This document shows positions 16,101-64,000 of a stretch of DNA of 64,000 nucleotides, piece by piece. Origin of the DNA: Prostheceraeus crozeri (lineage: Eukaryota; Platyhelminthes; Polycladida; Euryleptidae); assembly GCA_907163375.1 (NCBI GenBank), contig CAJQUW010003048.1:32647-96646 (forward strand), read 5' to 3'. The notes beneath the pieces are model-generated. The model did not search any database. It saw only the letters and a program-made list of their open reading frames with translations, and was not told the origin of the DNA. The translations under genes and the position numbers were made by a program. Position 1 is the first letter of the stretch. Each line of letters begins with the position of its first letter.

Positions 16101-16464
16101 TGTGGCTTCATTTAAGAGTGTTATCATTGTTAAGTCATGTGTGGGGTCCGCCTTTTTGGCGGGGGTCCGCCAGCTAGGGTTTGAGCGTACAAAATGTTAA
16201 AGGACCCGAAACGCGACCTAGCTGGTCATTTTGCTGATGAACCCCTTCTATGTTTATTCTTTTCTGGTATGTCTTGTATAAAGATTGTAAATATGTTTTA
16301 TTGTTCGGTACGCCATCTAAGTATTATTTCTTTTATATTACCCGATGACCGGCGTGAACGCTTTCAACAGCCCTTTTCAGGGCTACACTTATTAAGCATA
16401 TATTAACTTTTTATTGTATATTATTGTTCATTCGAAGTGCACTAACCTGACTTTTCCCATAATT
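13110..16464 (+). mobile_element. Naiad Penelope-like element, apparently full-length
   Basis: It starts immediately after copy 1, has a ~219-bp leader, one long ORF (13329-16115) and a ~350-bp 3' UTR ending CCCATAATT at 16464, where a hairpin MITE begins. The 3' UTR holds a 9-bp stem, CCAGCTAGG with CCTAGCTGG (about 12815 and 12863 in copy 1, repeated here). The Naiad group is described (Craig, Arkhipova and colleagues) as having an N-terminal GIY-YIG, a CxC linker motif, pseudo-LTRs and no canonical hammerhead. All of this fits. I cannot exclude small additional terminal bases. Confidence 0.88.
13329..16115 (+). CDS. Naiad PLE polyprotein: GIY-YIG endonuclease plus reverse transcriptase
   Basis: The 928-residue ORF encodes the retrotransposition enzyme of a Penelope-like element, expected to nick target DNA and prime cDNA synthesis there. 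Order of domains: Cys-rich segment (residues 28-44, CNSNKCLCC...CDNC); GIY-YIG endonuclease about 66-165, seen as IYLITC then QYVGQTR and RLNGHRH; basic stretch PRKRRSHGRRRSGRK (191-205); linker with CxC (CIC, 361-363) and YAPFGHIVTGDL; RT about 480-800 with FDFSTLYTN (D645), GIPMGGNCSP (728-737) and YIDD (773-776); then a thumb-like tail. The region between the fingers and motif A is long enough to hold the insertion-in-fingers domain known in this clade. The frame is open upstream back to a TAG at 13257, and 13329 is its first ATG. No in-frame TGA is present, so it is not one of the known selenocysteine-containing Naiads. All catalytic motifs are intact, so it is possibly active. Confidence 0.92.
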   Translation: MEIMSAKVFSFSANRWIAPPNVSNTSLCNSNKCLCCKSLECDNCFNSFSTGRKFVFDKAGNFNCKTKFAIYLITCMKCGVQYVGQTRQELHSRLNGHRHSICKDKLSTFLCKHFNSNGHSFSDVSVQIIDCVDSSQMSFDEAKRELDVKEDFYIKTLNTVYPLGLNDRLLGQGRVSNDTVNNTPFYSSPIPRKRRSHGRRRSGRKVRTSYPDSTVVFDSLRCFFDKCDFIDFYCYLRKLSRSVLRNLLQNLSSVAGDLRIVLSAFLTHVLNDNSNNGIDKDRERAVIVVLYDCRNIEYLNIPSVFGNKRIRRLLPDKVQSAHPPRIFYKLVKPISLRICNYSRLLSSLSLSDISNISTSACICSSKPDFIYAPFGHIVTGDLNVIDDVHLRNVMARGVKFRIPQFLPWNKVKADLVTCVKTHADKMSKVFKIDRDRFDDWEGETIDLICKRIKRLKYCENVFERKFTSIRSLDESIKRMHDHFVIVPVDKAANNFAVICKKLYINIMLEELGFDLNSLVPVGNATYSVSSEGSSEIVDRHCSLVKSFGINCSDDCKKLPKLFCIPKFHKSPYKFRFIAGARKCTSTQLSVVLNKGLSLIRDFFKLYCEAIQKNSGFRCFWSIKSTEEFLNVANNKNNVFSIQVFDFSTLYTNLNHEDICAHLLSLLELVFNSTSRKFLCVGFNKTFFAGKTYKGYHCFSLEMLKSAIKFVISEVFVVFGGLAFKQVRGIPMGGNCSPMLADLFLYHCEFVFMKSLVSNKKFGLPRLMSCTTRYIDDICLFNYKHFDTLVTKIYPADLKAERNGTDNTSVEYLDVKLNICSDGLHTSVFHKVEQFCFDVIVFTFPDSLLPLHMGANVFASQVLRYLRICSHLPYAIVKAKSMFKVFVKRGYEACKLIKCMERLLKKHFLVLFKFGLQSAREFCILCGFI

Positions 16465-16884: not shown

Positions 16885-17180
16885 ATCAACAATAATCCTC
16901 AATGCGCATGCAGTTTCGATTATATTAAATGAACTCCAGTTCAGACCAAACACCAAAAGTGAGATATGCAAATCTTCACAGTTTGAAAAAATTAACACGG
17001 AATTGACTGATCATGACAGCAATGCACAATTCAACGTAGCAAAGTGCGTCAAGGTAACAAGGATGAATGATATTCCACAAATCCTCCGTGTCATGACAGC
17101 CTTGGAGAAGTAATGTTCGTTGAATTAGCAATTCGATGGTTTGCTATTACTTTGATGTTCAGCCTTATTAATAAAGGTAT
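16885..17180 (+). repeat. CATAGAGTA-family MITE, left part of a split copy
   Basis: Shares runs with 45240-45460 and 52000-52150, including CAGTTTCGATT, AGTGAGATATGCAAATC and TCCGTGTCATGACAGCC. The sequence stops at the Tc1 insertion site (TA at 17181) and resumes at about 20020. It is the most diverged copy of this family in the window, so it is old. Confidence 0.6.
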
Positions 17181-17182
17181 TA

Positions 17183-18838
17183 CAGATTGTTTCATAAAAA
17201 ATGGATCACCCTTAAACATCGCCTTAACTTCAACTTTGTCTAACTCCGCCAAACTTGAACGAATTTCTCTGAAATTTGGAAGATATGACAGTTGTGCTTA
17301 CTAATATCATTGTTGGAAATTTCAAGCATGAATATTGAGTTGTCTTCCTGTTATAGATAAAAAAGTAGTAGATAATTTCATCTTCATTTAGCAATGTTAC
17401 ACAAAATCATACCTCACTCTTATAAAATTACATTTGTTTCCTTTGTTATGTAATATGTTGTTCTACAAGCCAAAAGCTATCAAGCAAAACAAAAATAAAG
17501 AAAATTGGTCAATCAGAGCCAGTATAGCACCATTATTCATCAACAATAATGCAACTGCTACATGTGATTAACTGGACTTCATGTTCCATAGCTTCCTAAC
17601 TTCGTTGCGGTGGTGTTGGCAGCACTCCTGATTGCTTTCAGCTAGAAATCTATCTCTTACCGGTTGAAGACAATACAAAGCATAAATGAACAATAACGAG
17701 ATCGCATTCACAAAAGGCAAAGTGTCAGCCTTGCTAGAACTAGGGTTTTCTTTCCGAGCTGCAAGCAAGCGACTAAATGTCCCTTACACAAATGTGCATC
17801 GATGGCATAATGATGATTTTCGACTCTGTCGTAAAGAGGGCTCTGGCCGTCCACGCAAAACATCCAAACGTAGAGACCGCCTAATTTTGAGATTTGTTAA
17901 AGTTGATCCAAGTCTATTGTTAACTGAGATGGCTGCACTGGACTCGTTTATTTCTAAGTCCACTATTTGTAGAAGACTTATTGAGTCGAATTTCAAGAGC
18001 TGTAAGAGGCCCTCTCAGATCGAATTATCAGATCAGCATACAAAAAACGTCTCAGATGGGCAATGAGTCATTGTCACTGGCGAAATCAATGGGATCGGGT
18101 TGTCTGGTCTGATGAGGCATCAGTCCGTCTGAAGGATAGTGATGGTCGATTGAGATTATGGATAAAATCTGATCAGGAAATTCCGAGACATTTACATCGT
18201 CCCCGGGTACAAGGTGGTGCGACTCTACTGATTTGGGCTGGCATTTGGACCAATGGCCGCTCTGAACTTCACATACAGCAAGGAACCATGAATTCTGAAC
18301 ACTATGTGAATGTTTTACGAATGAACATTGGCCAAATGACAGATCAACTTGGTGATCCATCGACTTGGTTATTTATGGATGATAATGCTACATGTTACAG
18401 GAGTAGTAGAGTCAACTTATGCAAGTCTCAATTAGGGCTTAGGACATTGTCTTGGCCAGCTCGTTCTCCTGATCTGAATCCCATAGAAAATGTATGGAGT
18501 ATTCTAAAACGTAACGTTCGTCGTTCACTGCTACCTACAGATGGCGTATCACAACTTACGTCACTGTTAAAAAGAGAGTGGAGAAAGTTAGATCAGTCAA
18601 AAATCAACGATATCATCGAATCAATGCCTAGACGAATTGGTAATGTCATTGACAATAAGGGTAGGGCCACAAAATATTAGCTTCTTAAGAACCGTTACTG
18701 TATCATAGCCTATCAGATTATATGAGGACATTTAAAGTATATTAGGTACATGAAATAACATGAAAAATGCTTTCTGTATCATACTTATGTTCTATTTAGT
18801 CAAATTTTAGAATGATCCACTTTTTATGAAACGGACTG
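17183..18838 (+). mobile_element. Tc1-family DNA transposon
   Basis: A 1.66-kb element flanked by TA (17181-17182 and 18839-18840). TIRs: left CAGATTGTTTCATAAAAAAT, right (read on the minus strand) CAGTCCGTTTCATAAAAAGT, followed in both by GGATCA. It holds one transposase gene in the plus direction. It sits inside an older MITE, whose halves continue on both sides. Confidence 0.9.
17686..18680 (+). pseudogene. Tc1 transposase (DD34E) with one frameshift
   Basis: The first frame (17686 on) holds the N-terminal helix-turn-helix pair, with LLELGFSFRAASKRLNVPY and a linker GSGRPRKTSKRRDR as in Tc1 DNA-binding domains. A single-base frameshift near 18005-18030 moves to a second frame that carries ...RWAMSHCHW, the catalytic region and the C-terminus. 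Catalytic residues are visible: D in VVWSDEAS, D in FMDDNATC, E in SPDLNPIENVWS, with 34 residues between the last two. Total ~330 residues, normal for Tc1. Apart from the frameshift everything looks intact, so inactivation seems recent. Confidence 0.88.
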
Positions 18839-28908: not shown

Positions 28909-29924
28909 CTATCTCGCTGAAGCACGTTGCAGACATCGACAGCACACTGTGTTCCTAATTTCTTTGTCTGTGAAGCAATATATTAATACATTCCAAATAC
29001 CAGATGATAGTAGAATTGTGTAGTTAATAACTGGTGCAAAATGATAGAGATCCGCGAAAATTGAAACCATCAAAGGAGCAGCACATAACAGATTCAAACA
29101 GATGATTGATCCCATTTTAAAAGACAATCTCATCAATTTTGTGGCAATTTTTCTGTCTTCGCCAATGAACGTCTTTCGTTTTTCTAGGCTGTAAGCAACG
29201 CCAATAATGATAGCTGAATTCAAAATCAATATCATGGTTAACCAAGCTAAATCAGAAATGTATGCGAATATGATGAAATCATTAGACATAAGTTTATGAT
29301 GGCAATCCGAATTTGGAATATATCCGTCATCACGAAAACCAAATCTAGCAACAGGATAAATAACACGAGAAATCCCAATGTATAACATAACAGAAGTGTT
29401 AAGGATGACAACTCGTCTAGTTGTGATCAACACTTTAAATTTTAAGGGATTATATATAGCAACTAAGCATTCACATGAGAAACTTATAAGAGACATTAAG
29501 AAAATGCCCCAACCAAAACCAAGGCAACAGTAAGAAAATACACATGTCAATCGATTAAGAGGTAAATACAAGCTGTAGAATATGAAGTAACTCGTAGAAA
29601 TGGTTGAAATAATGCTTGTAATATTCAAATATAAAAATTGACGATATTTATTCTTGCTGTATAACTTTTTCATCAACAAAATTAAAATGCTAAAAGAATT
29701 CAAGCATGTACTGGTTATCATGGTCGCTATCATCACTGGCGCTACGTATGGATCGACCATGCAGCCATCATAAGCCTTTGTTTGTTGATGTCTATATCTC
29801 AGCTCAATTTTCAAATGAACGACAAGTTTATAGAATCCCGCGTAGAGAAGCAGCCTTGATGAACATGGCAATAACGGAAGATTGACCACTTGTGGAATGT
29901 GGTGAAGCTTTAGATTTTGTTTTC
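28909..29924 (-). CDS. Class A-like 7TM receptor, main exon (paralogue 1)
   Basis: A single exon encodes a seven-transmembrane protein expected at the cell surface; the ligand is unknown. Counting from a GTG at 29889 (326 residues), hydrophobic spans lie at about 48-75, 85-107, 117-145, 158-180, 205-232, 250-278 and 288-307. Class A marks: Cys116 at the start of TM3 and Cys196 in loop 2 (likely disulphide), P272 in TM6, and NVLIY (300-304) for NPxxY. Unusually, the DRY motif reads ECL, lacking the arginine, and TM2 has no Asp. The exon really begins at 29924 behind a good splice acceptor (TTGTGTTTCAG), so the start Met lies in an unseen upstream exon. The extracellular part has CSS...AYDGC, shared with the receptor at 32294. 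The coding frame is intact. Confidence 0.82.
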
Positions 29925-32293: not shown

Positions 32294-33276
32294 TCAACCA
32301 ATAAAAGATTTACACCTGAGAATATTTCGAATTTCAGCATCTGCAAAACAATAAATCAAAACATTCCAAATACCAGACGAAAGTAAAATAGCAATATTGA
32401 TAGACCGAGGAAGATGTAGTTCATCAGAAACAATCGACAATAACAGTGGAAAACAGCATAAGATATTCAGACTTATAACCGCTCCTAACATAAGAACTAA
32501 TTTCATCATCTTTGAGAAAACCTTCTTATCCTTTCCCGCAACTTTTTTCCTTTCTTTTATATTTCGAGCAACACCAATTATAATGCCTAGATTCAGGATC
32601 ATAATGAGTACCAGCAGGAGCACACTGCAACCAATAGACAGCACAATGAAAGTATCACCCAAAACTCTATGAACACAATTTGAATATTCCAAATGACCAT
32701 CATGTGCACTGCCAAAGCTTATCATTGGAAATATAAATCCAGCTAATATAAGAAAAGCAAAATAGGAACAATTGACATTACCAATTCGTTTACTAGTGAC
32801 AATAATCTTAAATCTCAGAGGTTGATACACAGCAACTAAGCATTCAACTGACAAACTGATCAATGAAAATAGAAAAATATTCCAACCGACAGAAAAAATA
32901 GTAAAACCGAAAACACAGGAATATCTATTGTTCGGTAGGTAAATCCGATAAAATATGTAAGCACACGAAGAAATACTCGACAAAATGCTTGTGATATTTA
33001 AATACAGAAGTTGACGATATTTTCTTCTCTTAAATAATTTTGTTGCTATTATAATCGTACTACTGATTAAATTCAAAGAAGCACTGATGACAATAATTGC
33101 AACAATTATTGGCAGTAAGAGTGGATCTATATCACACCCATCATAAGTTTTGTCTCTTTTTGGAAGATGAAATATAGCTTGAAATAGTCCTGCGTGGATC
33201 AGGAGGTTTGACGAGCATGTTACCAGTTCAATAAATGTCATCTGTGGAATCTCGTAAATCTTCAAATTTAATTCCT
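32294..33276 (-). CDS. Class A-like 7TM receptor, main exon (paralogue 2)
   Basis: A paralogue of the receptor at 28909-29924 in the same orientation, 2.4 kb away. Seven hydrophobic segments, Cys pair (YSCVFG before TM3; SNCVHR in loop 2), TM6 proline (CCFPLLL) and NVLIY in TM7 are conserved. The DRY position again reads ECL (SVECLVAVYQPLRF), so the arginine is missing in both. The exon starts at 33276 after TTTTCTTTTCAG. The first codons after the acceptor (E-L-N-L-K-I-Y-E-I-P-Q) align with K-Q-N-L-K-L-H-H-I-P-Q of paralogue 1 in the same phase, so the intron was present before duplication. The extracellular CSS...TYDGCDIDP is conserved. Exon 1 was not found. The family looks lineage-specific; I cannot name a ligand. 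Confidence 0.82.
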
Positions 33277-38177: not shown

Positions 38178-38960
38178 CATAGAGTAGGAATATACTCGTA
38201 TATAGGTAGAGTGTCGACTCAAAAAAGTGTCTGTAGTGAAAATTTTTATATGAAAAGATTTAGCTTCTTGTGGAGATTAGATTCGCGTAGTTCAAAAAAT
38301 AGTTTGAGCAGTTTTAAAAAAAGTCAAAATTTTGCCAATTTATATACTACCGAGATGACTCCTCTATGCAAGTAGTATACAACAAGTTGGATATCAAAAG
38401 GAATGAATGTTTGGTAAAGCATCCTAGCTAAGCAGAAATTATGCTGATTATCATGGGAATTTCATGATCGTTTTTATAATGGACGTCTTCATGAAAAGGT
38501 CGACATCTTATCTTTCTTGGCTGAAATTTCATATTTCTAATTCATGAAAGCAACAGCAAGTCATCGAGTTGCCAATTTAACAAATATTACCTCTCCAAGG
38601 TTGTCATGACACGGACAATCTGTAAAATAATACCATTTCCTTCTACTTTGCTATCATGATCAGTCAATTGCCATACCTAATTGCCAATTGCCATGCCAAT
38701 ACCTAGCATAATTGCTCTATGAATTTAGTGAATCATAAAATCATGTGCCTATTGAAATTAAATTAATCAACATAAACATAATTGAATTCCAACTGCGTAG
38801 AGGTATATGATTCTATCCGCTTGTAGCTGAATTTTGCAGAGATATTTTGTTAACCGGAGAAAACAGTCTGCAACATTTCCACTTTAATTACAGAACTCTG
38901 CAGTTATATTCAAGAATCCAGCAGATTTATTTCATCGGAGATTCAAACATTCTATAAAAT

Positions 38961-39081
38961 TCGGAGATTGTCACGTTCTAAAAAATTGTTTTATCAATTT
39001 CTGAAATACTAAATTTTTGAAAATTATTCCTATGTTTATATTCTAGCGATTCGGGGCATGAGACTTTAACATGTAAGCATG
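38961..39081 (+). repeat. 121-bp direct duplication, second copy
   Basis: Exact partner of 37708-37828. It is enclosed by a local duplication of TTTCCACTTTAATTACAGAA (38878 and 39355), showing that this arm was rearranged after the inverted repeat formed. Confidence 0.85.
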
Positions 39082-39964
39082 AAACTTATTAGATACCAAA
39101 AAGAATGAAAATTTAATCAGTACATGCATCTTAATCAAACAAAAATTAAACTCATTATGCAGAAATTTTCATGAGCCGCACCATAATGCAAGTCTTCACA
39201 GAAAAGTTGAGATATTTTTCTACTTCATGGCTCAAATTTCATTCAAGTTTGCTAACTTAGCAAATCTAATAATTCATAGTCCTACATTTCTTTTCCACCA
39301 GGCTAAATGGATCTGTAAAGTAATATTGGATCTTATCCAAATTGTTGACACCATTTCCACTTTAATTACAGAACTCTGCAGTTATATTCAAGAATCCAGC
39401 AGATTTATTTCAGCATTTCAAGTTTATATTTCAGATTGAAGCATTATTTTTGACAACAACATTTTAATTTCAGAGAATTTTTGTGCGTGTGTTTAAATCA
39501 TTTATATTTGAGAATGCAACACTTATATTTCAGACTTTGTAATTTCTAATTCAGAAATAGACTTTATATTTCAGAAATGATCATTTATAATTCATTTTTA
39601 GTCAATTATGTTTCAGAATTCCAGAAAAGACGATATATATTTCAGAAATGATCATTTCACTTTCAGAATTGGTCACTTGCAATTCAGATGTCAAGTTTTA
39701 ATTTCAGAAACTGTGATATATATTTCAGAATGCATCAATTAAATTTGAGAATGTCGAATTTTTCAGAATTTGTTTCTATAAATCAGAAGTGCCATTTTCA
39801 ATAAAATAGAAGCCTCCATCACTTTGTGAGATATTCAATATTCTTTAATTTGATTTTGTAAGATAAAAGATGCGTTTTTTCATCCAGAGATTTTATATTT
39901 AATATCATTCGTGAAGCTTTAAAGTTGTGTATAAATAGACGTACAGTTATGAAGATAGTTTAAG

Positions 39965-40938
39965 TCACTGACCAACTCGAAGATCCCTCAATTCAAGGAC
40001 ATCACCATGGAAAGTTGTGGAATGCTGGCAGCAACGAAGGCACATTTGGTCACTGAGGCTGTTGATTCCATCCTGGACCATGTTCTCCAAATACTGAAGT
40101 CGCAGCTCGCCCACTCCTGAGCCATGAACCTCGGGAATGCGTAAATGCCTTTTGACATATGCTTTGAGAGATGACCACATGGACTCAATCGGGTTCAGAG
40201 GTGGAGAATATGGTGCTAGACGTAGCAGGATACTTCCAGTCCTGGCAAGGGCTTCGTCTATTCGTGAGTGGCACGGAGCATTGTCACAAACAATTATCAA
40301 ATTGTTTAATTGCTTTCCTGATTGCTCCCAGGTTTGAAGCAGCTCCTGTATCCATTCATTGCAGGAGTCACTCCTAAAGGCACCTCGACGCTTGATCATC
40401 GCAACTATCCCTTCGGAGGATATTGCTCCAATTACGTGAATATTCGGACCTTGTGATGGTGGACGATCTTAAATGGCCCTTGTTCCACGTCGTGACCAAC
40501 CTTGAGTGCGACGACAAAACAGACTGAAGTTAGTCTCGTCAATCCATATGACGTCCTTCCCCGATTGTGTGTACTGATTCAAGGACAATACATACTGTTT
40601 TCGTTGAGCCTTGTTCTCCTCCGAGTTCATCGTAGTTGGACGATGGTGAATTTTATAGTGTACATTTCCCCGTCCAAATAGATAGCTATCGTGCAGACTG
40701 CCAACCTGACCGACAAATCCTCGACTAAGAAGCTTTGAATTTGCTTCAGTGTCAGCTCTGGATTCTCTTCGAGCTTCTCCAAAACCAGATCAAGTTGCTC
40801 CTGGCTGACGTATTTCTTCTTGTATCCTCCTCGCCGCTTCCCATCACTTTCACCCGAACGGATCCATCCATAAGCTGTCTTGTATTTCACCTGGAGTGAT
40901 TCCGCTAAGGCTTTCCAATCACCTCCTCTTTCCGAACA
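39965..40938 (-). pseudogene. IS630/Tc1-superfamily-like transposase, decayed
   Basis: Minus strand. The N-terminal part (40938-40660) reads WKALAESLQVKYKTAYGWIR and then QEQLDLVLEKLEENPELTL, a double helix-turn-helix. A frameshift near 40655 leads to RPTTMNSEENKAQRKQYV, then VIWIDETNFSLFCRRTQGW (first Asp). A TAA at 40469-40471 interrupts, and the frame resumes to IIVCDNAPCH (second Asp) and YSPPLNPIESMWS (Glu). I count 32 residues between the last two acidic residues, not the 34 of Tc1. The upstream RING frame continues into this one across a single TAG. It is dead because of two stops and a frameshift, but the catalytic triad is otherwise preserved. Confidence 0.78.
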
Positions 40939-41190
40939 CTACACGATTCTTTTCCGATCTTGATTTGTGTACTTTGAATAGGTCTCATGCTCCACTTCTT
41001 CAGTCTCCTCGACCTCACCTCGACAGAGGGCGCAGATAGCATTGACGCTGTTCGTAATAGGAGCAATGCAATCGCGGTGGAATAAATGCATGCATAGCAG
41101 GATTTGTAATAATGTTGCTTTTGACATTGGTCTCAAACAAATTGCACAATTATCGGACACTTGCATTGTCACCAACAGTAATTTTATCAA
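40939..41190 (-). CDS. RING-H2 finger ORF preceding the transposase
   Basis: Starting at the ATG 41166, the protein reads MQVSDNCAICLRPM...; RING ligands are C7-x2-C10-x14-C25-x-H27-x2-H30-x2-C33-x11-C45-x2-C48, a complete C3H2C3 (RING-H2) set, followed by an acidic tail (EVEETEEVEHE). RING-H2 domains usually recruit ubiquitin-conjugating enzymes. The ORF lies between the long inverted arms and is in the same frame as the transposase 3' of it, parted only by TAG at 40939-40941. Either the RING is a separate small protein of the element or the original protein was a RING-transposase fusion. The intact ligand set argues for past selection. Confidence 0.72.
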   Translation of the reverse strand: MIKLLLVTMQVSDNCAICLRPMSKATLLQILLCMHLFHRDCIAPITNSVNAICALCRGEVEETEEVEHETYSKYTNQDRKRIV

Positions 41191-41389
41191 TCATCTGTGT
41201 TGGCCAATTTATACCTTAGCCTCCTGCACACTATTCGGATCTTTGCAAGCATTTTCTGACAACTGAGAAGTGCTTAAATTAAACTGATGCATTCTGAAAT
41301 ATATTTCACCGTTTCTGAAATTGAAACTTGACATCTGAAAGTGAAATGGGGATTTCTGAAATATAAATGACTAAAAATGAATTATAAAT

Positions 41390-41590
41390 GATCATTTCTG
41401 AAATATAAAGTCTATTTCTGAATTAGAAATGACAAAGTCTGAAATATAAAGTCCAAAAATGAATTATAAATGATCATTTCTGAAATATAAAGTCCAAAAA
41501 TGAATTATAAATGATCATTTCTGAAATATAAAGTCCAAAAATGAATTATAAATGATCATTTCTGAAATATAAAGTCTATTTCTGAATTAG
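41390..41590. repeat. 41-bp tandem repeat, about 4 units
   Basis: AATGATCATTTCTGAAATAT followed by AAAGTCCAAAAATGAATTATA repeats at 41-bp spacing. The mirrored position in the left arm (39570-39605) has one unit only. AT-rich and non-coding. Confidence 0.8.
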
Positions 41591-42479
41591 AAATTACAAA
41601 GTCTGAAATATAAGTGTTGCATTCTCAGATATAAATGATTGAAACACACACACAAAAATTCCCTGAAATTAAAATGTTGTTGTCAAAAATATAAATGCTT
41701 CAATCTGAAATATAAACTTGAAATGCTGAAATAAATCTGCTGGATTCTTGAATATAACTGCAGAGTTCTGTAATTAAAGTGGAAATGTTGCAGACTGTTT
41801 TCTCCGGTTAACAAAATATCTCTGCAAAATTCAGCTACAAGCGGATAGAATCATATACCTCTACGCAGTTGGAATTCAATTATGTTTATGTTGATTAATT
41901 TAATTTCAATAGGCACATGATTTTATAATTCACTAAATTCATAGAGCAATTATCCTAGGTAGTGGTATGGCAATTGGCAATTAGCTATGGCAATTGACAA
42001 ATCATTATAGCAAAGTAGAAGGAAATGGTATTATTTTACAGATTGTCCGTGTCATGACAACCTTGGAGAGGTAATATTTGTTAAATTGGCAACTCGATGA
42101 CTTGCTGTTGTTTTCATGAATTAGAAATATGAAATTTCAGCCAAGAAAGATAAGATGTCGACCTTTTCATGAAGACGTCCATTATAAAAACGATCATGAA
42201 ATTCCCATGATAATCAGCTTGATTTCCGCTTAGCTAGGATGCTTTAGGAAATATTCATTCCTTTTGATATCCAACTTGTTGTATACTACTTGCATAGAGG
42301 AGTCATCTCGGTAGTATATAAATTGGCAAAATTTTGACTTTTTTTAAAACTGCTCAAAAATTTTTTTGAACCACGGGAACGTAGTCTCCGCAAAAAACTG
42401 AATTTTTTCATACAAAAATTTTGACTGTATACAGATACTTTTTTGAGTCGACACTCTACCTATATATCCCTACTCTATG

Positions 42480-45209: not shown

Positions 45210-45849
45210 CATAGAGTAACTATGTTAGGTTGAGTGGCAACTCCGCATACACTTTCGATTTTATTAAATGAACTCAAGGGAGATACAATCGGAATTGTTT
45301 CAAAATGTGAGATATACAAATTTATGCAGTTTTGAAGAAATTACAACGGAAATCACTGATCATGATAGGGGAGCAGAATAAAAAGATATTATTTTACTGA
45401 TTGTCCGTGTCATGACAGCCTCGGAGAGGTGTTATTTGTTCAATTGGCAACTCGATAACCTGCTATTGCTTTCATGAATTAGAAATATGGAATCTCAGGC
45501 AAGAAAGCACAATAAAATGTCGACTTTTTCATGAAAACTTCCATTATAAAACGAATCATGAAATTCCCATGATAATCAGCTTGATTTCCGCTCAGTTAGG
45601 ATGCTTTAGCAAACATTCATTCCTTTTGATATCCAACTTGTTGCATACTACTTGCATAGAGGAGTCATCTCGGTAGTATATAAATTGGCAAAATTTTGAC
45701 TTTTTTTAGAACTGCTCAAATAATTTTTTGAACTACGGGAATCTTATCTCCACAAGAAGCTAAATCTTTTCATATAAAAATTTTCACTGTATACAGATAC
45801 TTTTTTGAGTCGACACTCTACCTATATACGAGTATATCCCTACTCTTAG
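45210..45849 (+). mobile_element. CATAGAGTA-family MITE, complete copy
   Basis: 640 bp. The left end is CATAGAGTAACTATGTTAGG; the right end, read on the minus strand, is ..AAGAGTAGGGATATACTCG. The subterminal blocks GAGTGGCAACTC and GAGTGTCGACTC mirror each other. Flanks TGTGTGCC (45202-45209) and TGTGTACC (45850-45857) form a 7/8 target duplication. Non-coding, hAT-like by duplication length. Confidence 0.75.
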
Positions 45850-51934: not shown

Positions 51935-52690
51935 ATTTTTCCACTGGGACAGTACCACATGTGAGATATGCAAATTTTTGCACTTCTGGAGAAATGTACA
52001 CGAATTTGACATGATAGAAAGAAGAAAGAAAAGTAATTTACAAATCCTCCATGTCATGACAACTTTGAAGAGGTAATATAGTTTGCTAAAGTAGCAACAT
52101 ATATTAGCAATTCGATGGTCACTATTACTTCATAGCTCAGCCTTATACTACAACAGGATTATTTTAATAGGATACTATAACAGGAACAAAGTGCGACTGA
52201 AAGAGAAAAACATTATATTCAAAGAAAATGATCATAATTAACTTAAAAGATGTAAATCGGTTCACATTACTATTCAGATTCAAGAAATGATGCCTTGTAA
52301 GTCAAAAAATCATGCCGCTGAAATTTGAATTAAAAATATGATATCTCAGCCAAGAAGCACAATAAGATCTCAACTTTTCCTTGAAGACTTGTAAGGACTT
52401 GCATTATAATGCAGTTCATGAAATTTCCTTGATCATCAGCTTGATTGAGATGCCTGTTAGTAAATATTCAATCCTTTTAATATCCAACTTATTTCATACT
52501 ACTTATAAAGTGGCTTTATGTCGGTAGTATATAAATACAGAAATACTTTGCAAAAATTTAGCATTTTAAATACTGCTCAAATAATTTTTTGGACCACAGG
52601 AGCGTAATCTCCGCAAAAAATTGAATGTTTTCATATACAAAGTTTCACTGTATATAAATACTTTTTTGAGTCGACACTCTACCTCGGGTG
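51935..52690 (+). repeat. CATAGAGTA-family MITE, copy truncated at both ends
   Basis: Runs from GTGAGATATGCAAATTTTTG to GAGTCGACACTCTACC at 52682, sharing the order of blocks with 45300-45830. The left start is replaced by another repeat, ending AATTTTTCCACTGGGAC, and the right terminus CTACTCTATG is missing. Confidence 0.7.
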
Positions 52691-52804
52691 GGCGGAAATT
52701 AATACCTTTCTTGAAATGTCTCTAATTCGTTAAGTGCTGTTCAGATTCGCACTATATTCAAGCCTCATGTGCATCAAGCCTATATTCTTCTATGTATGCG
52801 ACCA

Positions 52805-53614
52805 TAGAGTAGGGATATATGGGTAGAGTGTAGACTCAAAAAAGTATCTGTATACAGTGACTCAGGTTTTTGCGGAGATTACGTTCCCGTAGTTCAAAAA
52901 ATTATTTGAGCAGTTTAAAAAATTTCAAAATTCTGCAAATTGATATACTACCGACATGACGCTCCGTTATGAGTAGCATGAAACAAGTTGGATATCAAAA
53001 GGAATGAATATTTGCCAATAAGCATCCCAACTAAGCGGAAATAAAGCTAATTTGCAAGGGAATTTCATGAGCCGCAATATAATGGAAGTCTTTATGAAAA
53101 AGGCGAGATCTAACTTTGCTTTCTTATCTGAAATGTCAAGTTTTTAATTCAATTTTCACCGGCATGATTTCATGATTCACTAAATTCATGCTTCATTTCT
53201 TGAATATGAATAGTGATGTGGACCCATCTACATCTTTCAAAGTTAATTTTGATTATGTTATTTTGCTGTGTCATTGGGAGGTTGTCTGTCATATGATCAC
53301 GCTTAAGAAAACACTTGAGGTTGAGCATGAAAATAATAGCAATCTATCCAATTGATTACCTAGCAAACATTAAATGTCCAAGGCTGTCATGTCACTGAGA
53401 ATCTGTAAAATACCATCATTCCTTCTGCATTACGATCATGATCATTCAATTCCGTGGTAATTTCTTCAAACTGCAAAAATTTGCATATCTGACATTTGGT
53501 AGCAATACCCCCATTGTATTCACCTCGAGTTCATTGAATAAAATCGAAAGTGTATACACATTGGGGATTTAATAAATGCGGGGTTACCACTCAACCTAAT
53601 ATACTTACTCTATG
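52805..53614 (-). mobile_element. CATAGAGTA-family MITE, complete inverted copy
   Basis: 810 bp. Left end CATAGAGTAGGGATATATGG; right end, read on the minus strand, CATAGAGTAAGTATATTAGG. Flanked by a perfect 8-bp duplication, TATGCGAC (52797-52804 and 53615-53622). Together with the copy at 51935-52690 it forms a ~1.7-kb tail-to-tail inverted pair with a ~115-bp spacer. Confidence 0.85.
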
Positions 53615-54520: not shown

Positions 54521-55003
54521 AAAGAACAAAAGCGCTCTCTGTGTATCCGTACTATTTGCATAACTGGTCTGTCCTTGTCTGGCTCCTTCATGTCATCATG
54601 TCATCCGCATATTTCACCAAACAGTCTTCAGAGGAGAATTGTAGATTCGACACAATGCATTTGAGCAAATGAGGACTGACTAATCATCCTTGCAGTATTC
54701 CGCCGAGTACCTTGAACAATTTTCAGAAGCATTTTGACCATCGTTCCTTTTCTAACGATTTGAGAAGCAAATCACTCTACTCGAAGCAAGATGCATGCGC
54801 TTCAACTCCAGGGCTAAAAGTGCATTTCTGCTGTAATGACTGAATCGAAAAAGGGCACATGCTGCGAAGCCATGCTGTCGGCAAGCAAATTGTTTTCCAT
54901 TACTTGCATTATAATATCATGGTTGTAACGGCGAAGCATCGACGGCACACAAGGACAGACCAGTTATGCAAATAGTACGGATACACAGAGAGCGCTTTTG
55001 TTC
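54521..55003. repeat. Inverted-repeat element with ~55-bp arms
   Basis: ACAAAAGCGCTCTCTGTGTA, then CCGTACTATTTGCATAACTG at 54530-54580, is mirrored at 54948-55000. The interior (~370 bp) has no domain. The 34-bp array begins at the outer edge of the right arm (first TTCGATGGAGGAC at 55000). Confidence 0.85.
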
Positions 55004-58000
55004 GATGGAGGACCCTGTTCGAAGACAGGCTCCATTCTTTGTTGGACATTATTCGAAGCCAGGCTGTATTCTTTGTTGGACACTATTCGAAGCCAGACTC
55101 GATCCTTTGTTGGACAATATTCGAAGCTAGGCTCTATTCGATGGAGGACACTATTCGAAGACAGGCTCTATTCTTTGTTGCACACGATTCGAAGCCAGGC
55201 TTAATTCTTTGTTGCACCCGATTCGAAGCCAGGCTCTATTCTTTGTTGGACACTATTCGAAGCCAGGCTCTATTCTTTGTTGCATCCGATTCGAAGCCAG
55301 GCTCTATTCTTTGTTGCAACCGATTCGAAACCAGGCTCTATTCGATGGAGGATCCTATTCGAAGCCAGGCTCAATTCTTTGTTGCACCCGATTCGAAGCC
55401 AGGCTCTATTCCTTGTTGGACACTATTCGAAGCCAGGCTCTATCCTTTGTTGGACACTATTCGAAGCCAGGCTCTATTCCTTGTTGGCCACTATTCGAAG
55501 CCAGGCTCTATTCTTTGTTGGACCCGATTCGAAGCCAGGCTCTTTTCTTTGTTGGACACTATTCGAAGCTAGGCTCTATTCGATGGAGGACCCTATTCGA
55601 AGCCAGGCTCTATTCGTTGGATGATCCTATTCGAAGCCAGGCTCGATTCTTTGTTGGACACTATTCGAAGCCAGACTCTATTCTTTGTTGCATCCGATTC
55701 GAAGCCAGGCTCTATTCCTTGTTGGACACTATTCGAAGCCAGGCTCTATTCTTTGTTGGACACTATTCGAAGCCAGGCTCTATTCCTTTTTGCACCCTAT
55801 TCGAAGCCGGGCCCTATTCGTTGGAGGATTCTATTCGAAGCCATGGCTCAATTCTTTGTTGCACCCGATTCGAAGCCAGGCTCCATCCTTTGTTGGACAC
55901 TATTCGAAGCCAGGATCTATTCGATGGAGGACACTATTGGAAGTGAGGCTCTATTCTTTGTTGGACACTATTCGAAGCCAGGCTCTATTCTTTGTTGGAC
56001 ACTATTCGAAGCCAGGCTCTATTCTTTGTTGGACACTATTCGAAGCCAGGCTCTATTCTTTGTTGCACCCGATTCGAAGCCATGGCTCTATTCGATGGAG
56101 GACACTATTCGAAGCCAGGCTCTATTCTTTGTTGCACCCAATTCGAAGCCAGACTCTATTCTTTGTTGGACACTATTCGAAGCCAGGCTCCATCCTTTGT
56201 TAGACACTATTCAAAGCCAGGGTCTATTCTTTGTTGCATCCGATTCGAAGCCAGGCTCTATTCCTTGTTGGACACTATTCGAAGCCAGGCTATATTCTTT
56301 GTTGGACACTATTCGAAGCTAGGCTCTATTCTTTGTTGGACACTATTCGAAGCCAGGCTCTATTCTTTGTTGGACACTATTCAAAGCCAGGCTCCATTCT
56401 TTGTTGGACATTATCAGAAGCCATGCTCTATTCCTTGTTGCACCCGGTTCGAAGGCAGGCTCTATTCTTTGTTGGACATTATTCGAAGCCAGGCTCCTTT
56501 CTTTGTTGGACACTATTCGAAGCCAGGCTATATTCTTTGTTGGACACTATTCGAAGCTAGGCTCTATTCTTTGTTGGACACTATTCGAAGCCAGGCTCTA
56601 TTCTTTGTTGGACACTATTCAAAGCCAGGCTCCATTCTTTGTTGGACATTATAAGAAGCCAGGCTCGATCCTTTGTTGCACACTGTTCGAAGCCAGGCTC
56701 TATTCTTTGTTGGACACTATTCGAAGCCAGGCTCTATTCTTTGTTGGACACTATTCGAAGCCAGGCTCTATTCTTTGTTGGACACTATTCGAAGCCAGGC
56801 TCTATTCTTTGTTGCACCCGATTCGAAGCCAGGCTCTATTCTTTGTTGGACACTATTCGAAGCCAGGCTCTATTCTTTGTTGGACACTATTCGAAGCCAG
56901 GCTCTATTCTTTGTTGGACACTATTCGAAGCCAGGCTCTATTCTTTGTTGGACCCGATTCGAAGCCAGGCTCTATTCCTTGTTGGACACTATTCGAAGCC
57001 AGGCTCTATTCCTTGTTGGACACTATTCGAAGCCAGGCTCTATTCTTTGTTGGACATTATTCGAAGCCAGGCTCTATTCTTTGTTGGACACTTTTCGAAG
57101 CGAGGCTCTATTCCTTGTTGGACACTATTCGAAGCCAGGCTCTATTCTTTGTTGGACATTATTCGAAGCCAGGCTCTATTCTTTGTTGCACACGATCCGA
57201 AGCCGGGCTCTATTCTTTGTTGGACACTATTCGAAGCCAGGCTCTATTGTTTGTTGGACACTATTCGAAGCCAGACTCTATTCTTTGTTGCACCCGATTC
57301 GAAGCCTGGCTCTATTCCTTGTTGGACACTATTGGAAGCCCGGCTCTATTCGATGAAGCACCCTATTCGAAGCCAGACTCTATTCTTTGTTGGACACTAT
57401 TCGAAGCCATGCTCCATCCTTTGTTAGACACTATTCAAAGCCAGGGTCTATTCTTTGTTGCATCCGATTCGAAGCCAGGCTCTATTCTTTGTTGGACACT
57501 ATTCAAAGCCAGGCTCCATTCTTTGTTGGACACTATCAGAAGCCATGCTCTATTCCTTGTTGCACCCGGTTCGAAGGCAGGCTCTATTCTTTGTTGGACA
57601 TTATTCGAAGCCAGGCTCCATTCTTTGTTGGACACTATTCGAAGCCAGGCTCTATTCTTTGTTGGACACTATTCGAAGCCAGGCTCTATTTTTTGTTGGA
57701 CACTATTCGAAGCCAGGCTCTATTCCTTGTTGGACACTACTCGAAGCCAGGCTCTATTGTTTGTTGGACACTATTCGAAGCCGGGCTCTATTCTTTGTTG
57801 CACCCGATCCGAAGCCAGGGTCTATTCCTTGTTCGACACTACTCGAAGCCAGGCTCTATTGTTTGTTGGACACTATTCGAAGCCAGGCTCTATTCTTTGT
57901 TGGACATTATTCGAAGCCAGCCTCTATTCTTTGTTGGACATTATTCGAAGCCAGGCTCTATTCTTTGTTGGACACTATTCGAAGCCATGCTCCATCCCTT

Positions 58001-61000
58001 GTTGGACACTATCAGATGCCAGGCTCTATTCGATGGAGGACCCTATTCGAAGCCAGGCTCCGTCCTTTGTTGGACACTATCAGAAGCCGGGCTCTATTCT
58101 TTGTTGGACACTATTAGAAGCCAGGCTCTATTCTTTGTTGGACACTATCAGAAGCCAGGCTCTATTCCTTGTTGGACACTATTAGAAGCCAGGCTCTATT
58201 CTTTGTTGGACATTATTCAAAGCCAGGCTCCATTCTTTGTTGGACATTATCAGAAGCCATGCTCTATTCCTTGTTGCACCCGGTTCGAAGGCAGGCTCTA
58301 TTCTTTGTTGGACATTATTCGAAGCCAGGCTCCTTTCTTTGTTGGACACTATTCGAAGCCAGGCTCTATTCTTTGTTGCACCCAATTCGAAGCCAGACTC
58401 TATTCTTTGTTGGACACTATTCGAAGCCAGGCTCCATCCTTTGTTAGACACTATTCAAAGCCAGGGTCTATTCTTTGTTGCATCCGATTCGAAGCCAGGC
58501 TCTATTCCTTGTTGGACACTATTCGAGGCCAGGCTATATTCTTTGTTGGACACTATTCGAAGCTAGGCTCTATTCTTTGTTGGACACTATTCGAAGCCAG
58601 GCTCTATTCTTTGTTGGACACTATTCAAAGCCAGGCTCCATTCTTTGTTGGACATTATCAGAAGCCATGCTCTATTCCTTGTTGCACCCGGTTCGAAGGC
58701 AGGCTCTATTCTTTGTTGGACATTATTCGAAGCCAGCTCCTTTCTTTGTTGGACACTATTCGAAGCCAGGCTATATTCTTTGTTGGACACTATTCGAAGC
58801 TAGGCTCTATTCTTTGTTGGACACTATTCGAAGCCAGGCTCTATTCTTTGTTGGACACTATTCAAAGCCAGGCTCCATTCTTTGTTGGACATTATCAGAA
58901 GCCATGCTCTATTCCTTGTTGCACCCTGTTCGAAGCCAGGCTCTATTCCTTGTTGGAAACTATTCGAAGCCAGGCTCTATTCTTTGTTGGACACTACTCG
59001 AAGCCAGGCTCCATCCTTTGTTGGACACTATTCGAAGCCAGGCTCTATTCTTTGTTGCACCCGATTCGAAGCCAGGCTCTATTCTTTGTTGGACACTATT
59101 CGAAGCCGGGCTCTATTCTTTGTTGGACACTATTCGAAGCCAGGCTCTATTCTTTGTTGGACACTATTCGAAGCCAGGCTCTATTCTTTGTTGCACCCGA
59201 TTCGAAGCCAGGCTCTATTCCTTGTTGGACACTAGTCGAAGCGAGGCTCTATTCCTTGTTGGACACTATTCGAAGCCAGGCTCTATTCTTTGTTGGACAT
59301 TATTCGAAGCCAGGCTCTATTCTTTGTTGGACACTTTTCGAAGCGAGGCTCTATTCCTTGTTGGACACTATTCGAAGCCAGGCTCTATTCTTTGTTGGAC
59401 ATTATTCGAAGCCAGGCTCTATTCTTTGTTGCACACGATCCGAAGCCGGGCTCTATTCTTTGTTGGACACTATTCGAAGCCAGGCTCTATTGTTTGTTGG
59501 ACACTATTCGAAGCCAGACTCTATTCTTTGTTGCACCCGATTCGAAGCCTGGCTCTATTCCTTGTTGGACACTATTGGAAGCCCGGCTCTATTCGATGAA
59601 GCACCCTATTCGAAGCCAGGCTCTATTCTTTGTTGGACACTATTCGAAGCCATGCTCTATTCTTTGTTGGACACTATTCAAAGCCAGGGTCTATTCTTTG
59701 TTGCATCCGATTCGAAGCCAGGCTCTATTCTTTGTTGGACACTATTCAAAGCCAGGCTCTATTCTTTGTTGGACACTATCAGAAGCCATGCTCTATTCCT
59801 TGTTGCACCCGGTTCGAAGGCAGGCTCTATTCTTTGTTGGACATTATTCGAAGCCAGGCTCCATCCTTTGTTGGACACTATTCGAAGCCAGACTCTATTC
59901 TTTGTTGGACACTATTCGAAGCCAGGCTCTATTCTTTGTTGGACACTATTCGAAGCCAGGCTCTATTCCTTGTTGGACACTATTCGAAGCCAGGCTCTAT
60001 TCTTTGTTGGACAGTATTCGAAGCCGGGCTCTATTCTTTGTTGCACCCGATCCGAAGCCAGGCTGTCTATTCCTTGTTCGACACTATTCGAAGCCAGGCT
60101 TATTGTTTGTTGGACACTATTCGAAGCCAGGCTCTATTCTTTGTTGGACAATATTCGAAGCCAGGCTCTATTATTTGTTGGACATTATTCGAAGCCAGGC
60201 TCTATTCTTTGTTGGACACTATTCGAAGCCATGCTCTATTCTTTGTTGGACACTATCAGATGCCAGGCTCTATTCGATGGAGGACCCTATTCGAAGCCAG
60301 GCTCCGTCCTTTGTTGGACACTATCAGAAGCCGGGCTCTATTCTTTGTTGGACACTATTAGAAGCCAGGCTCTATTCTTTGTTGGACACTATCAGAAGCC
60401 AGGCTCTATTCCTTGTTGGACACTATTAGAAGCCAGGCTCTATTCTTTGTTGGACATTATTCGAAGCCAGGCTCTATTCTTTGTTGGGCACTATTCGAAG
60501 CCAGGCTCTATTCTTTGTTGGACACTATTCGAAGCCAGGCTCTATTCGATGGAGGACACTATTCGAAGACAGGCTGTATTCTTTGTTGGACACTATTCGA
60601 AGCCAGGCTCTATTCTTTCTTGCACCCGATTCGAAGCCAGGCTCTATTCTTTGTTGGACTCTATTCGAAGCCAGGTTCTATTCTTTGTTGGACTCTATTC
60701 GAAGCCAGGCTCTATTCGATGGAGGACCCTATTCGAAGCCAGGCTCTATTCTTTGTTGGACACTATTCGAAGCCAGGCTCTATTCTTTGGTTGACACTAT
60801 TCGAAGCCAGGCTCTATTCTTTGTTGCACCCGACTCGAAGCCAGGCTCTATTCTTTGTTGGACTCTATTCGAAGCCAGGTTCTATTCTTTGTTGGACTCT
60901 ATTGGAAGCCAGGCTCTATTCGATGGAGGACCCTATTCGAAGCCAGGCTCTATTCTTTGTTGGACACTATTCGAAGCCAGGCTCTATTCTTTGGTTGACA

Positions 61001-64000
61001 CTATTCGAAGCCAGGCTCTATTCTTTGTTGCACCCGATTCGAAGCCAGGCTCCATCCTTTGTTGGACAAAATTCGAAGCCAGGCTCTATTCTTTGTTGGA
61101 CACTATTCGAAGCCAGGCTCTACTCTTTGTTGGACATTATTCGAAGCCAGGCTGTATTCTTTGTTGGACACTATTCGAAGCCAGGCTCTATTCTTTGTTG
61201 GACATTATTCGAAGCCAGGCTGTATTCTTTGTTGGACATTATTCGAAGCCAGGCTCTATTCTTTGTTGGACACTATTCGAAGCCAGGCTCCATCCTTTGT
61301 TGGACACTATTCGAAGCCAGGCTCCATCCTTTGTTGGACACTATTCAAAGCCAGGCTCTATTCTTTGTTGGACATTATTCGAAGCCAGGCTCTATTCTTT
61401 GTTGGACACTATTCGAAGCCAGGCTTCATCCTTTGTTGGACAAAATTCGAAGCGAGGCTCCATCCTTTCTTGCACCCGATTCGAAGCCATGGCTATTCGA
61501 TGGAGGACACCATTCGAAGCCAGGCTCTATTCGATGGAGGACCCTATTCGAAGCCAGGCTCTATTCCTTGTTGGACACTATTCGAAGCCAGGCTCTATTC
61601 TTTGTTGCACCCGTTTCGAAGCCAAGCTCTATTCTTTGTTGCACCCGTTTCGAAGACAGGCTCTATTCTTTGTTGGACACTATTAAAAGCCAAGCTCTAT
61701 TCTTTGTTGGACCCTATTCGAAGCCAGGCTCTATTCTTTGTTGCACCCTTTTCGAAGCCAGACTCTATTCTTTGGTTGACACTATTCGAAGCCGGGCTCT
61801 ATTCTTTGTTGCACTTGATTCGAAGCCATGGCTCTATTCGATGGAGGACACTATTCGAAGCCAGGCTCTATTCTTTGTTGGACACTATTCGAAGCCAGGC
61901 TCTATTCTTTGTTGGACACTATTCGAAGCCAGGCTGTATTCTTTGTTGGACATTATTCGAAGCCAGGCTCTATTTTTTGTTGGACATTATTCGAAGCCAG
62001 GCTCTATTCTTTGTTGGACACTATTCGAAGCCAGGCTCTATTCTTTGTTGGACACTATTCGAAGCCAGGCTCTCTTCTTTGTTGGACAATATTCGAAGCC
62101 AGGCTCTACTCCTTGTTGGACACTATTCGAAGCTAGGCTCTATTCTTTGTTGGACCCTATTCGAAGCCAGGCTCCATCCTTTGTTGGACGCTATTCGAAG
62201 CCAGGCTCTTTTCTTTGTTTGACACTATTGGAAGCTAGGCTCTATTCGATGGAGGACACTATTCGAAGCCAGGCTCAATTCTTTGTTGCACCCGATTCGA
62301 AGCCAGGCTCTATTCTTTGTTGGACACTCTTCGAAGATAGTCTCTATTCTTGGTTGCACCCGATTCGAAGCCAGGCTCCATCCTTTGTTGGACAAAATTC
62401 GAAGCCAGGCTCTATTCTTTGTTGCACCCGTTTCGAAGCCAGGCTCTACTCTTTGTTGGACATTATTCGAAGCCAGGCTGTATTCTTTGTTGGACACAAT
62501 TCGAAGCCAGACTCTATTCGATGGAGGACACTAATTCGAAGCCAGGCTCAATTCTTTGTAGGACATTATTCGAAGCCAGGCTCCATCCTTTGTTGGACAC
62601 TATTCGAAGCCAGGCTCCATCCTTTGTTGGACATTATTCGAAGCCAGGCTCCATCCTTTGTTGGACACTATTCGAAGCCAGGCTATATTCTTTGTTGGAC
62701 ATTATTCGAAGCCAGGTTCTATTCTTTGTTGGACACTATTCGAAGCCAGGCTCCATCCTTTGTAGGACGAAATTCGAAGCCAGGCTCTATTCTTTGTTCG
62801 ACATTATTCGAAGCCAGGCTCTATTCTTTGTTGGACATTATTCGAAGCCAGGCTCTATTCTTTGTTGGACACTATTCGAAGCCAGGCTCCATCCTTTGTT
62901 GGACAAAATTCGAAGCCAGGCTCCATCCTTTGTTGCACCCGAATCGAAGCCATGGCTATTCGATGGATGACACCATTCGAAGCCAGGCTCTATTCGATGG
63001 AGGACCCTATTCGAAGCCAGGCTCTATTCCTTGTTGGACATTATTCGAAGCCAGGCTCTATTCTTTGTTGGACACTACTCGGATCCAGGCTCCATCCTTT
63101 GTTGGACAAAATTCGAAAGCCGGGCTCTATTTTTTGTTGCACTTGATTCGAAGCCATGGCTCTATTCGATGGAGGACACTATTCGAAGCCAGGCTCTATT
63201 CTTTGTTGGACACTATTCGAAGCCAGGCTCTATTCGATGTTGGACACTATTCGAAGCCAGGCTCTATTCTTTGTTGGACAAAATTCGAAGCCAGGCTCTA
63301 TTCTTTGTTGGACACTATTCGAAGCCAGGCTGTATTCTTTGTTGTGCATTATTCGAAGCCAGGCTCTATTTTTTGTTGGACATTATTCGAAGCAGGCTCT
63401 ATTCTTTGTTGGACACTATTCGAAGCCAGGCTCTATCCTTTGTTGGACATTATTCGAAGCCAGGCTCTATTCTTTGTTGGCCACTATTCGAAGCCAGGCT
63501 CTATTCTTTGTTGGACACTATTCGAAGCCAGGCTCCGTCCTTTGTTGAACACTATTCGAAGCCAGACTCTATTCTTTGTTGGACACTATTCGAAGCCAGG
63601 CTCTATTCTTTGTTGGACATTATTCGAAGCCAGGCTGTATTCTTTGTTGGACATTATTCGAAGCCAGGCTCTATTTTTTGTTGGACATTATTTGAAGCCA
63701 TGCTGTATTCTTTGTTGGACATTATTCGAAGCCAGGCTCTATTTTTTGTTGGACATTATTCGAAGCCAGGCTCTATTCTCTGTTGGACAGTATTCGAAGC
63801 CAGGCTCTATTCGATGGAGGACCTTATTCGAAGACAGGCTGTATTCTTTGTTGGACACTGTTCGAAGCCAGGCTCTACTCCTTGTTGGACACTATTCGAA
63901 GCTAGGCTCTATTCTTTGTGGGACCCTATTCGAAGCCAGGCTCTATTCGATGGAGGACACTATTCGAAGCCAGGCTCCATCCTTTGTTGGACGCTATTCG
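55003..64000 (+). repeat. 34-bp satellite-like tandem array, about 260 units, continues past the window
   Basis: The basic unit (for example 56723-56756) is made of GAAGCCAGGCTCTATTC and TTTGTTGGACACTATTC, 17 bp each, sharing CTATTC. Variants alternate: TGCACCCGATTCG for TGGACACTATTCG, and TCGATGGAGGACC for TTTGTTGGACA. Because 34 is not a multiple of 3, translation repeats every 102 bp as a 34-residue unit; as it lacks stops, all forward frames stay open (up to 1135 codons at 57387-60794). The minus strand is closed by TAG in the consensus unit. There is no start signal, codon bias or domain, so I call repeats, not genes. A CpG in TTCGAAG is kept in most units, with scattered TTCAAAG. Confidence 0.95.
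57091..60430 (+). repeat. 2.24-kb higher-order duplication inside the 34-bp array
   Basis: Rare variants recur at a constant offset: CTTTTCGAAGCGAGG at 57091 and 59334 (2243 bp); ATCAGATGCCAGGC at 58011 and 60255 (2244 bp). 2244 equals 66 units. The stretch between shows the same order of unit variants with a few changes. The outer limits are not resolved. Confidence 0.75.

Follow-up and report, generated by a model that had tools for sequence, protein, structure and literature searches.

In the window, by which we mean the whole 64,000-nucleotide stretch of Prostheceraeus crozeri DNA analyzed here, a RING-H2 finger is encoded upstream of a helix-turn-helix (HTH) and a D-D-E transposase. Transposases of the IS630/Tc1/mariner (ITm) kind are widespread and simple, normally an HTH plus a DDE domain. 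Does this RING belong to the transposase and, if it does, what might it do there? Our main reading, to which we assign a probability of about 0.6, is that the window holds a decayed eukaryotic IS630-type cut-and-paste transposon with a fused Met-RING-H2-HTH-D84-D32-E transposase, the RING of which probably acts in cis as an E3 ligase, as a dimeriser, or as both.

Structure of the element in the window

The RING-H2 (C3H2C3) finger occupies positions 41020-41154 on the minus strand, with a Met upstream at 41166. The Pfam model zf-RING_2 matched residues 13-57 of the open reading frame at 40939-41190 (E = 6.1e-10; 39.7 bits against a cut-off of 27.3), in confirmation of a first-pass annotation of this DNA, which had described a C3H2C3 RING as complete and as starting at 41166 on that strand. 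As read from the open frames, a single in-frame TAG (40939-40941), replaced by Glu in several other copies, marks the junction between this RING and the HTH region (40627-40938, minus strand; HTH_32 E = 3.1e-5, below the model's cut-off), again as first described. The first catalytic Asp (WIDET) lies in a block in another frame (40469-40789, minus strand) that is ended by a TAA at 40469-40471, and the remainder of the core (39965-40468, minus strand; DDE_3 E = 3.9e-16) supplies the second Asp (CDNAPCH) and the Glu (NPIE). All three acidic residues are thus present, with 32 residues between the second Asp and the Glu, in agreement with the first-pass annotation. Its placement of the D-D-E in the RING-HTH frame must be corrected for this copy, in which a frame change between the HTH and the catalytic domain and the TAA at 40469-40471 intervene; because these split the catalytic part from the RING-HTH frame, the window copy is dead. 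A profile search, which the same annotation had proposed for the RING and the catalytic core, placed all three domains in the window (zf-RING_2, HTH_32 below its cut-off, and DDE_3). A separate Tc1-like transposase extends over two open reading frames at 17686-18680 of the window, the second of which matches DDE_3 (E = 3.1e-15).

The RING transposon, a decayed member of what we call subfamily A, is about 2.44 kb long and spans 39349-41790, with its gene on the minus strand. These limits derive from most other subfamily-A copies, the homology of which to the window is limited to ~39348 and ~41790-41797, and from the CTACACC ends of other copies compared. The element has its own terminal inverted repeats (TIRs) of about 0.5 kb: a left TIR of A+T-rich short repeats at 39349-39788 (plus strand) and a right TIR at 41234-41790 (minus strand), recognized as inverted repeats of one another. 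Outside these lie two outer arms, at 38178-38867 and 41793-42479 (neither assigned to a strand), which repeat matches in the window and the genome assign to another inverted-repeat family. Over 38178-38934 and 41727-42479 the two sides are 94% identical. Further copies of the outer-arm family were located in the window at 45355-45846, 52326-53151 and 17071-17157, and the end of this family has at least 41 matches in the genome. When the outer arms were compared with the other 69 IS630-like loci, many of which have little flanking DNA, a single 129-bp match was found (L002).

The RING transposon of the window is therefore nested in a separate inverted-repeat family. The arms of 1.2-1.5 kb first taken to bound the element are composite, their outer parts being that other family; as ends of the RING element they are ruled out by the subfamily-A homology limits and by the arm copies elsewhere. 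Positions 38868-38934 of the left arm are a copy of the last ~67 bp of the right end of the RING element, for which an exchange between arms would account.

Distribution of the fusion in the genome

All relatives compared come from one 2.05-Gb genome, that of the window. The DDE part has at least 150 matches there (the best 150 of 13,382 candidates), and 70 loci were read (L001-L060 and L062-L071, L001 being the window copy). The number left out, L061, is mitochondrial COX1, with TGA in frame and readable with the invertebrate mitochondrial code; its frame is already open ~70 residues before the usual start. Seven RING-bearing subfamilies account for 53 of the 70 loci (A, 28; B, 5; C, 4; D, 7; E, 7; H, 1; J, 1). 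A RING was found in 39 of these 53 (tblastn, E ≤ 1e-3), two of them partial (L012, at a contig edge, and L069). Six more (L020, L021, L022, L024, L026, L028) retain the first 19 RING residues only and represent an internally deleted derivative, in which those residues are joined to the DDE part in an open frame of 196 aa. The remaining eight (L002, L003, L014, L015, L016, L025, L027, L040) have no RING; they are truncated, internally deleted or without the upstream part, and in the seven from subfamily A, the homology with the window element skips the RING, stops before it, or is rearranged. The RING exceeded the Pfam cut-off in each of the five subfamily representatives given (A-E).

At nine of the 70 loci (L004, L029, L030, L032, L033, L038, L048, L049, L050), Met-RING-H2, HTH and D-D-E are encoded in a single open frame of ~400 aa with all zinc ligands; one of these, L004, has 17 residues missing between HTH and core. 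The frame is also open in L031, where the second Asp is replaced, and in L037, where one zinc ligand is replaced. Because nine copies hold both in one open frame, RING and transposase are a fusion and not two proteins. The first-pass annotation had left a choice between fusion and second protein, of which only the fusion stands; its proposal that this lineage captured an E3-ligase-like domain gains support from the same uninterrupted copies, several genomic copies in RING-HTH-DDE order being what it had looked to for support. The other 17 loci make up seven further subfamilies (L043/L044/L057; L051-L054; L058/L060; L062-L064; L065-L067; L068; L071), and in the DNA available for them tblastn found no RING (E ≤ 1e-3). 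Among IMG/VR and GTDB genome contigs, tblastn confirmed no relatives. As a separate observation, contig C8582 carries at 132603-144674 four RING matches on one strand at ~3.96-kb spacing, perhaps a tandem array of elements.

Transposase family and origin of the RING

The transposase is of IS630 type. DDE_3 and HTH_32 were each matched in all seven representatives given, the latter over its curated cut-off only in L030 (E = 4e-8) and L044. The IS630 model NF033545 scored over its cut-off in five of five proteins: L030, L032 and L048, which carry a RING, and L044 and L052, which do not. Among the matches listed at E ≤ 0.01 there was no RAG1 or Transib model, the core being DDE_3/IS630. Of twelve rows with a RING, the spacing between the second Asp and the Glu could be measured in eight and was 32 or 31; of twelve rows without one, it could be measured in eleven and was 33 or 35. 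The difference from Tc1 (DD34E) that had been noticed in the window copy, 32 residues instead of 34, thus extends to other members of the group.

Trees were built from the transposase columns, without the RING, of chosen rows. A first tree of 31 family rows and an outgroup needed three RING changes, because it included L003 and L040, two copies without a RING that belong to RING subfamilies. With these two and other near-copies left out, the RING rows formed one side of one branch with moderate support, 73/77 in a tree of 17 rows and 84/87 in a tree of 24; in the latter, rooted on the chosen outgroup, the RING-less subfamilies fell outside the RING clade. The history that these sequences make most likely, short of proof, is that the RING-H2 was gained once, at the base of a DD31-32E clade, and then kept.

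Two other origins were weighed against a single gain. From the window copy alone, with its TAG between RING and HTH, one might suppose that a host RING exon had been inserted by chance upstream of a single transposase copy. That explanation is refuted, and its probability is close to nil: the RING stands in the same place at 39 of 53 loci in seven subfamilies, nine of them with RING and D-D-E in one frame. It is more conceivable, yet still improbable, that the common ancestor of all these IS630-like subfamilies already had the RING and that those without one have lost it, since unrooted counts do not separate gain from loss, the root is a chosen outgroup with support of 84/87, and losses of the RING do occur inside RING subfamilies. 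An ancestral RING would nevertheless require several losses, because none of the 17 loci in the seven RING-less subfamilies shows one.

Conservation of the RING

The RING has diverged more rapidly than the core: in pairwise comparisons of five subfamilies, identity was 27-53% in the RING and 45-69% in the core. RING identity rises with core identity (r = 0.68; 7 of 120 permutations gave a value as high). Of 49 RING columns, 9 are invariant across subfamilies A, B, C, D, E and H, and eight of these are zinc ligands. In all ten pairs the RING sequences differ more at third codon positions than at the other two. Codon-position differences were used because dN/dS, by codon model and NG86, gave no omega and dS was mostly saturated; owing to that saturation this evidence is qualitative.

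In RING fingers the Ile/Val of C-x-I-C and the Arg after the last Cys have a role in E2 binding. Here, all six subfamilies have Ile or Val between the first two Cys, and five of them have the Arg; subfamily D is without it, and subfamily A is without the Pro after the seventh ligand. Among solved structures, the RING comes closest to chains of E3 ligases (Arkadia, RNF13), with E = 6.5e-6 for the window RING and 2.4e-7 for that of L030. AlphaFold, run on the 83-aa window RING alone, returned a helical model without a RING fold (mean pLDDT 61.5).

Target site and mobility

The elements have long TIRs, roughly 0.2-0.8 kb, that start with CACC, and the ends CTACAC are common to subfamilies B to E and to the RING-less subfamily F. 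In a pattern search, 49 of 58 ends had CTA before the TIR, and 23 of 29 elements had it on both sides; those 29 include two RING-less elements, and L032, which ends in CTACACT, was missed by the pattern. Five loci, L027 (A), L032 (C), L036 (B), L048 (E) and L050 (E), have their element at the same place of one dispersed repeat, the unfilled form of which has at least 40 long matches in the genome. At eight loci read for the unfilled form, nine sites had CTAG (seven) or CTAA (two) at the position of the element. Comparison of unfilled CTAG with the filled arrangement, C-TA-element-TA-G, indicates that the TA of CTAG is duplicated. Strict site-specific insertion was considered and rejected, as only 5 of the 29 elements with examined ends share one site and the rest were not seen to. 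The same preference is named for IS630 by Tenzen and Ohtsubo (1991) in a paper title cited in PMC2170065; the RING transposons are animal elements with the target choice reported for the bacterial one. The elements at L029 and L030 share 99.3% identity over 2,415 bp and have different flanks; being near-identical at different places, they indicate that subfamily B moved recently.

Proposed function of the RING

Cut-and-paste transposition at TA is established for IS630, with the HTH as the TIR-binding part and the D-D-E core as the catalyst of DNA cutting and joining. By the same scheme, the HTH part of the RING transposase would bind its TIRs and the D-D-E core would cut and join DNA at TA. 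The RING, for its part, may recruit an E2 and ubiquitinate either the transposase or some protein next to the DNA complex, such as a histone or host factor; it may also, or instead, dimerise the transposase. The outcome would be that the amount of transposase is tuned, or that disassembly of the strand-transfer complex is helped, as reported for the RAG1 RING. We favor ubiquitination of the transposase or of nearby proteins as such a control or disassembly step, a candidate role suggested by analogy. A stronger reading, which we hold tentatively and at a little under even odds, is that a self-carried ubiquitin ligase in an IS630/Tc1/mariner transposase would constitute a second, independent RING-plus-DDE design, with ubiquitination a working step of transposition, be it self-limitation, disassembly of the complex, or the disabling of host factors at the insertion site.

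The main rival to ubiquitination is pure dimerisation. The RING would then be a zinc module with a structural task, dimerising the transposase or making further contacts to DNA or target, with no ubiquitin ligase activity. We consider this less likely, at odds somewhat below those of the stronger reading, yet it has points in its favor: subfamily D does without the Arg after the last Cys, strict invariance is limited to the zinc ligands and one Met, and in the accessible part of the RAG1 literature the RING overlaps a zinc dimerisation domain. What counts against it is that every subfamily (6/6) has the Ile/Val of C-x-I-C and nearly every one (5/6) the Arg, and that the closest solved chains are E3 ligases; a RING used in ubiquitination thus remains the reading we prefer.

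Relation to known systems

With bacterial IS630 and eukaryotic ITm elements the RING transposons share the HTH and DDE_3 core, an NF033545 score over the cut-off, the TA duplication and the CTAG target. They differ in the N-terminal RING-H2, in the DD31-32E spacing, which lies outside the nine classical ITm families as far as these are set out in the available part of PMC8533490, and in TIRs of roughly 0.2-0.8 kb. Like RAG1 and Chapaev, in the portions of that literature at hand, they carry a RING upstream of a DDE core in one protein; those belong to another superfamily, whereas the core here is IS630/DDE_3 and the protein has ~400 aa. The same partial sources, PMC4411706 included, report that the RING at the N terminus of RAG1 has E3 ligase activity toward RAG1 and other proteins alike and that it overlaps a dimerisation region; one of them notes later reports in which ubiquitination is credited to complexes other than the isolated RING. 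Arkadia/RNF13-type RING-H2 E3 ligases have the same C3H2C3 finger and are the best solved matches; they are cellular proteins without a transposase, and the RING of the transposons is a putative E3 ligase.

According to the accessible text of Kapitonov and Koonin (2015; PMC4411706), the RING finger is confined, among known transposable elements, to the Chapaev/RAG group. Other cases are described in the sources as far as available: a RING linked to a DDE transposon in Mutator-like elements, namely MULE 37_Pi of Phytophthora and the Ghost element of the black cherry aphid (PMC6446971), which belong to another superfamily and, in Ghost, have the RING as a separate ORF; and a RING in LTR elements of Calliphora. 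Among the literature matches listed, in a search with Repbase and most subscription papers outside its scope, there was no RING fused to an ITm transposase; searches of the literature for DD32E, and for 'RING domain' with IS630 and transposase, found no paper. The RING transposons are an ITm case beside those of the Chapaev/RAG, Mutator and LTR elements, without precedent among the matches listed. The fusion looks like an independent version of the RAG1 domain plan. Probably fused once, and kept through several subfamilies, the RING suggests that ubiquitin chemistry can join a compact cut-and-paste transposase, and the RING transposase offers a small, testable analogue of the N-terminal region of RAG1.

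Other features of the window

Two closely similar long open reading frames lie at 10331-12760 and 13329-16115; the second matches GIY-YIG weakly, short of the cut-off, and the pair is presumably Penelope-like. An open reading frame at 9042-9632 matches DUF3504 barely over the cut-off. Two similar frames at 28909-29889 and 32294-33265, of which the second matches 7tm_1 weakly and short of the cut-off, are perhaps a receptor pair. From ~55000 to 64000 the window is occupied by a long tandem-repeat tract, in which several frames are open and peptide units recur.
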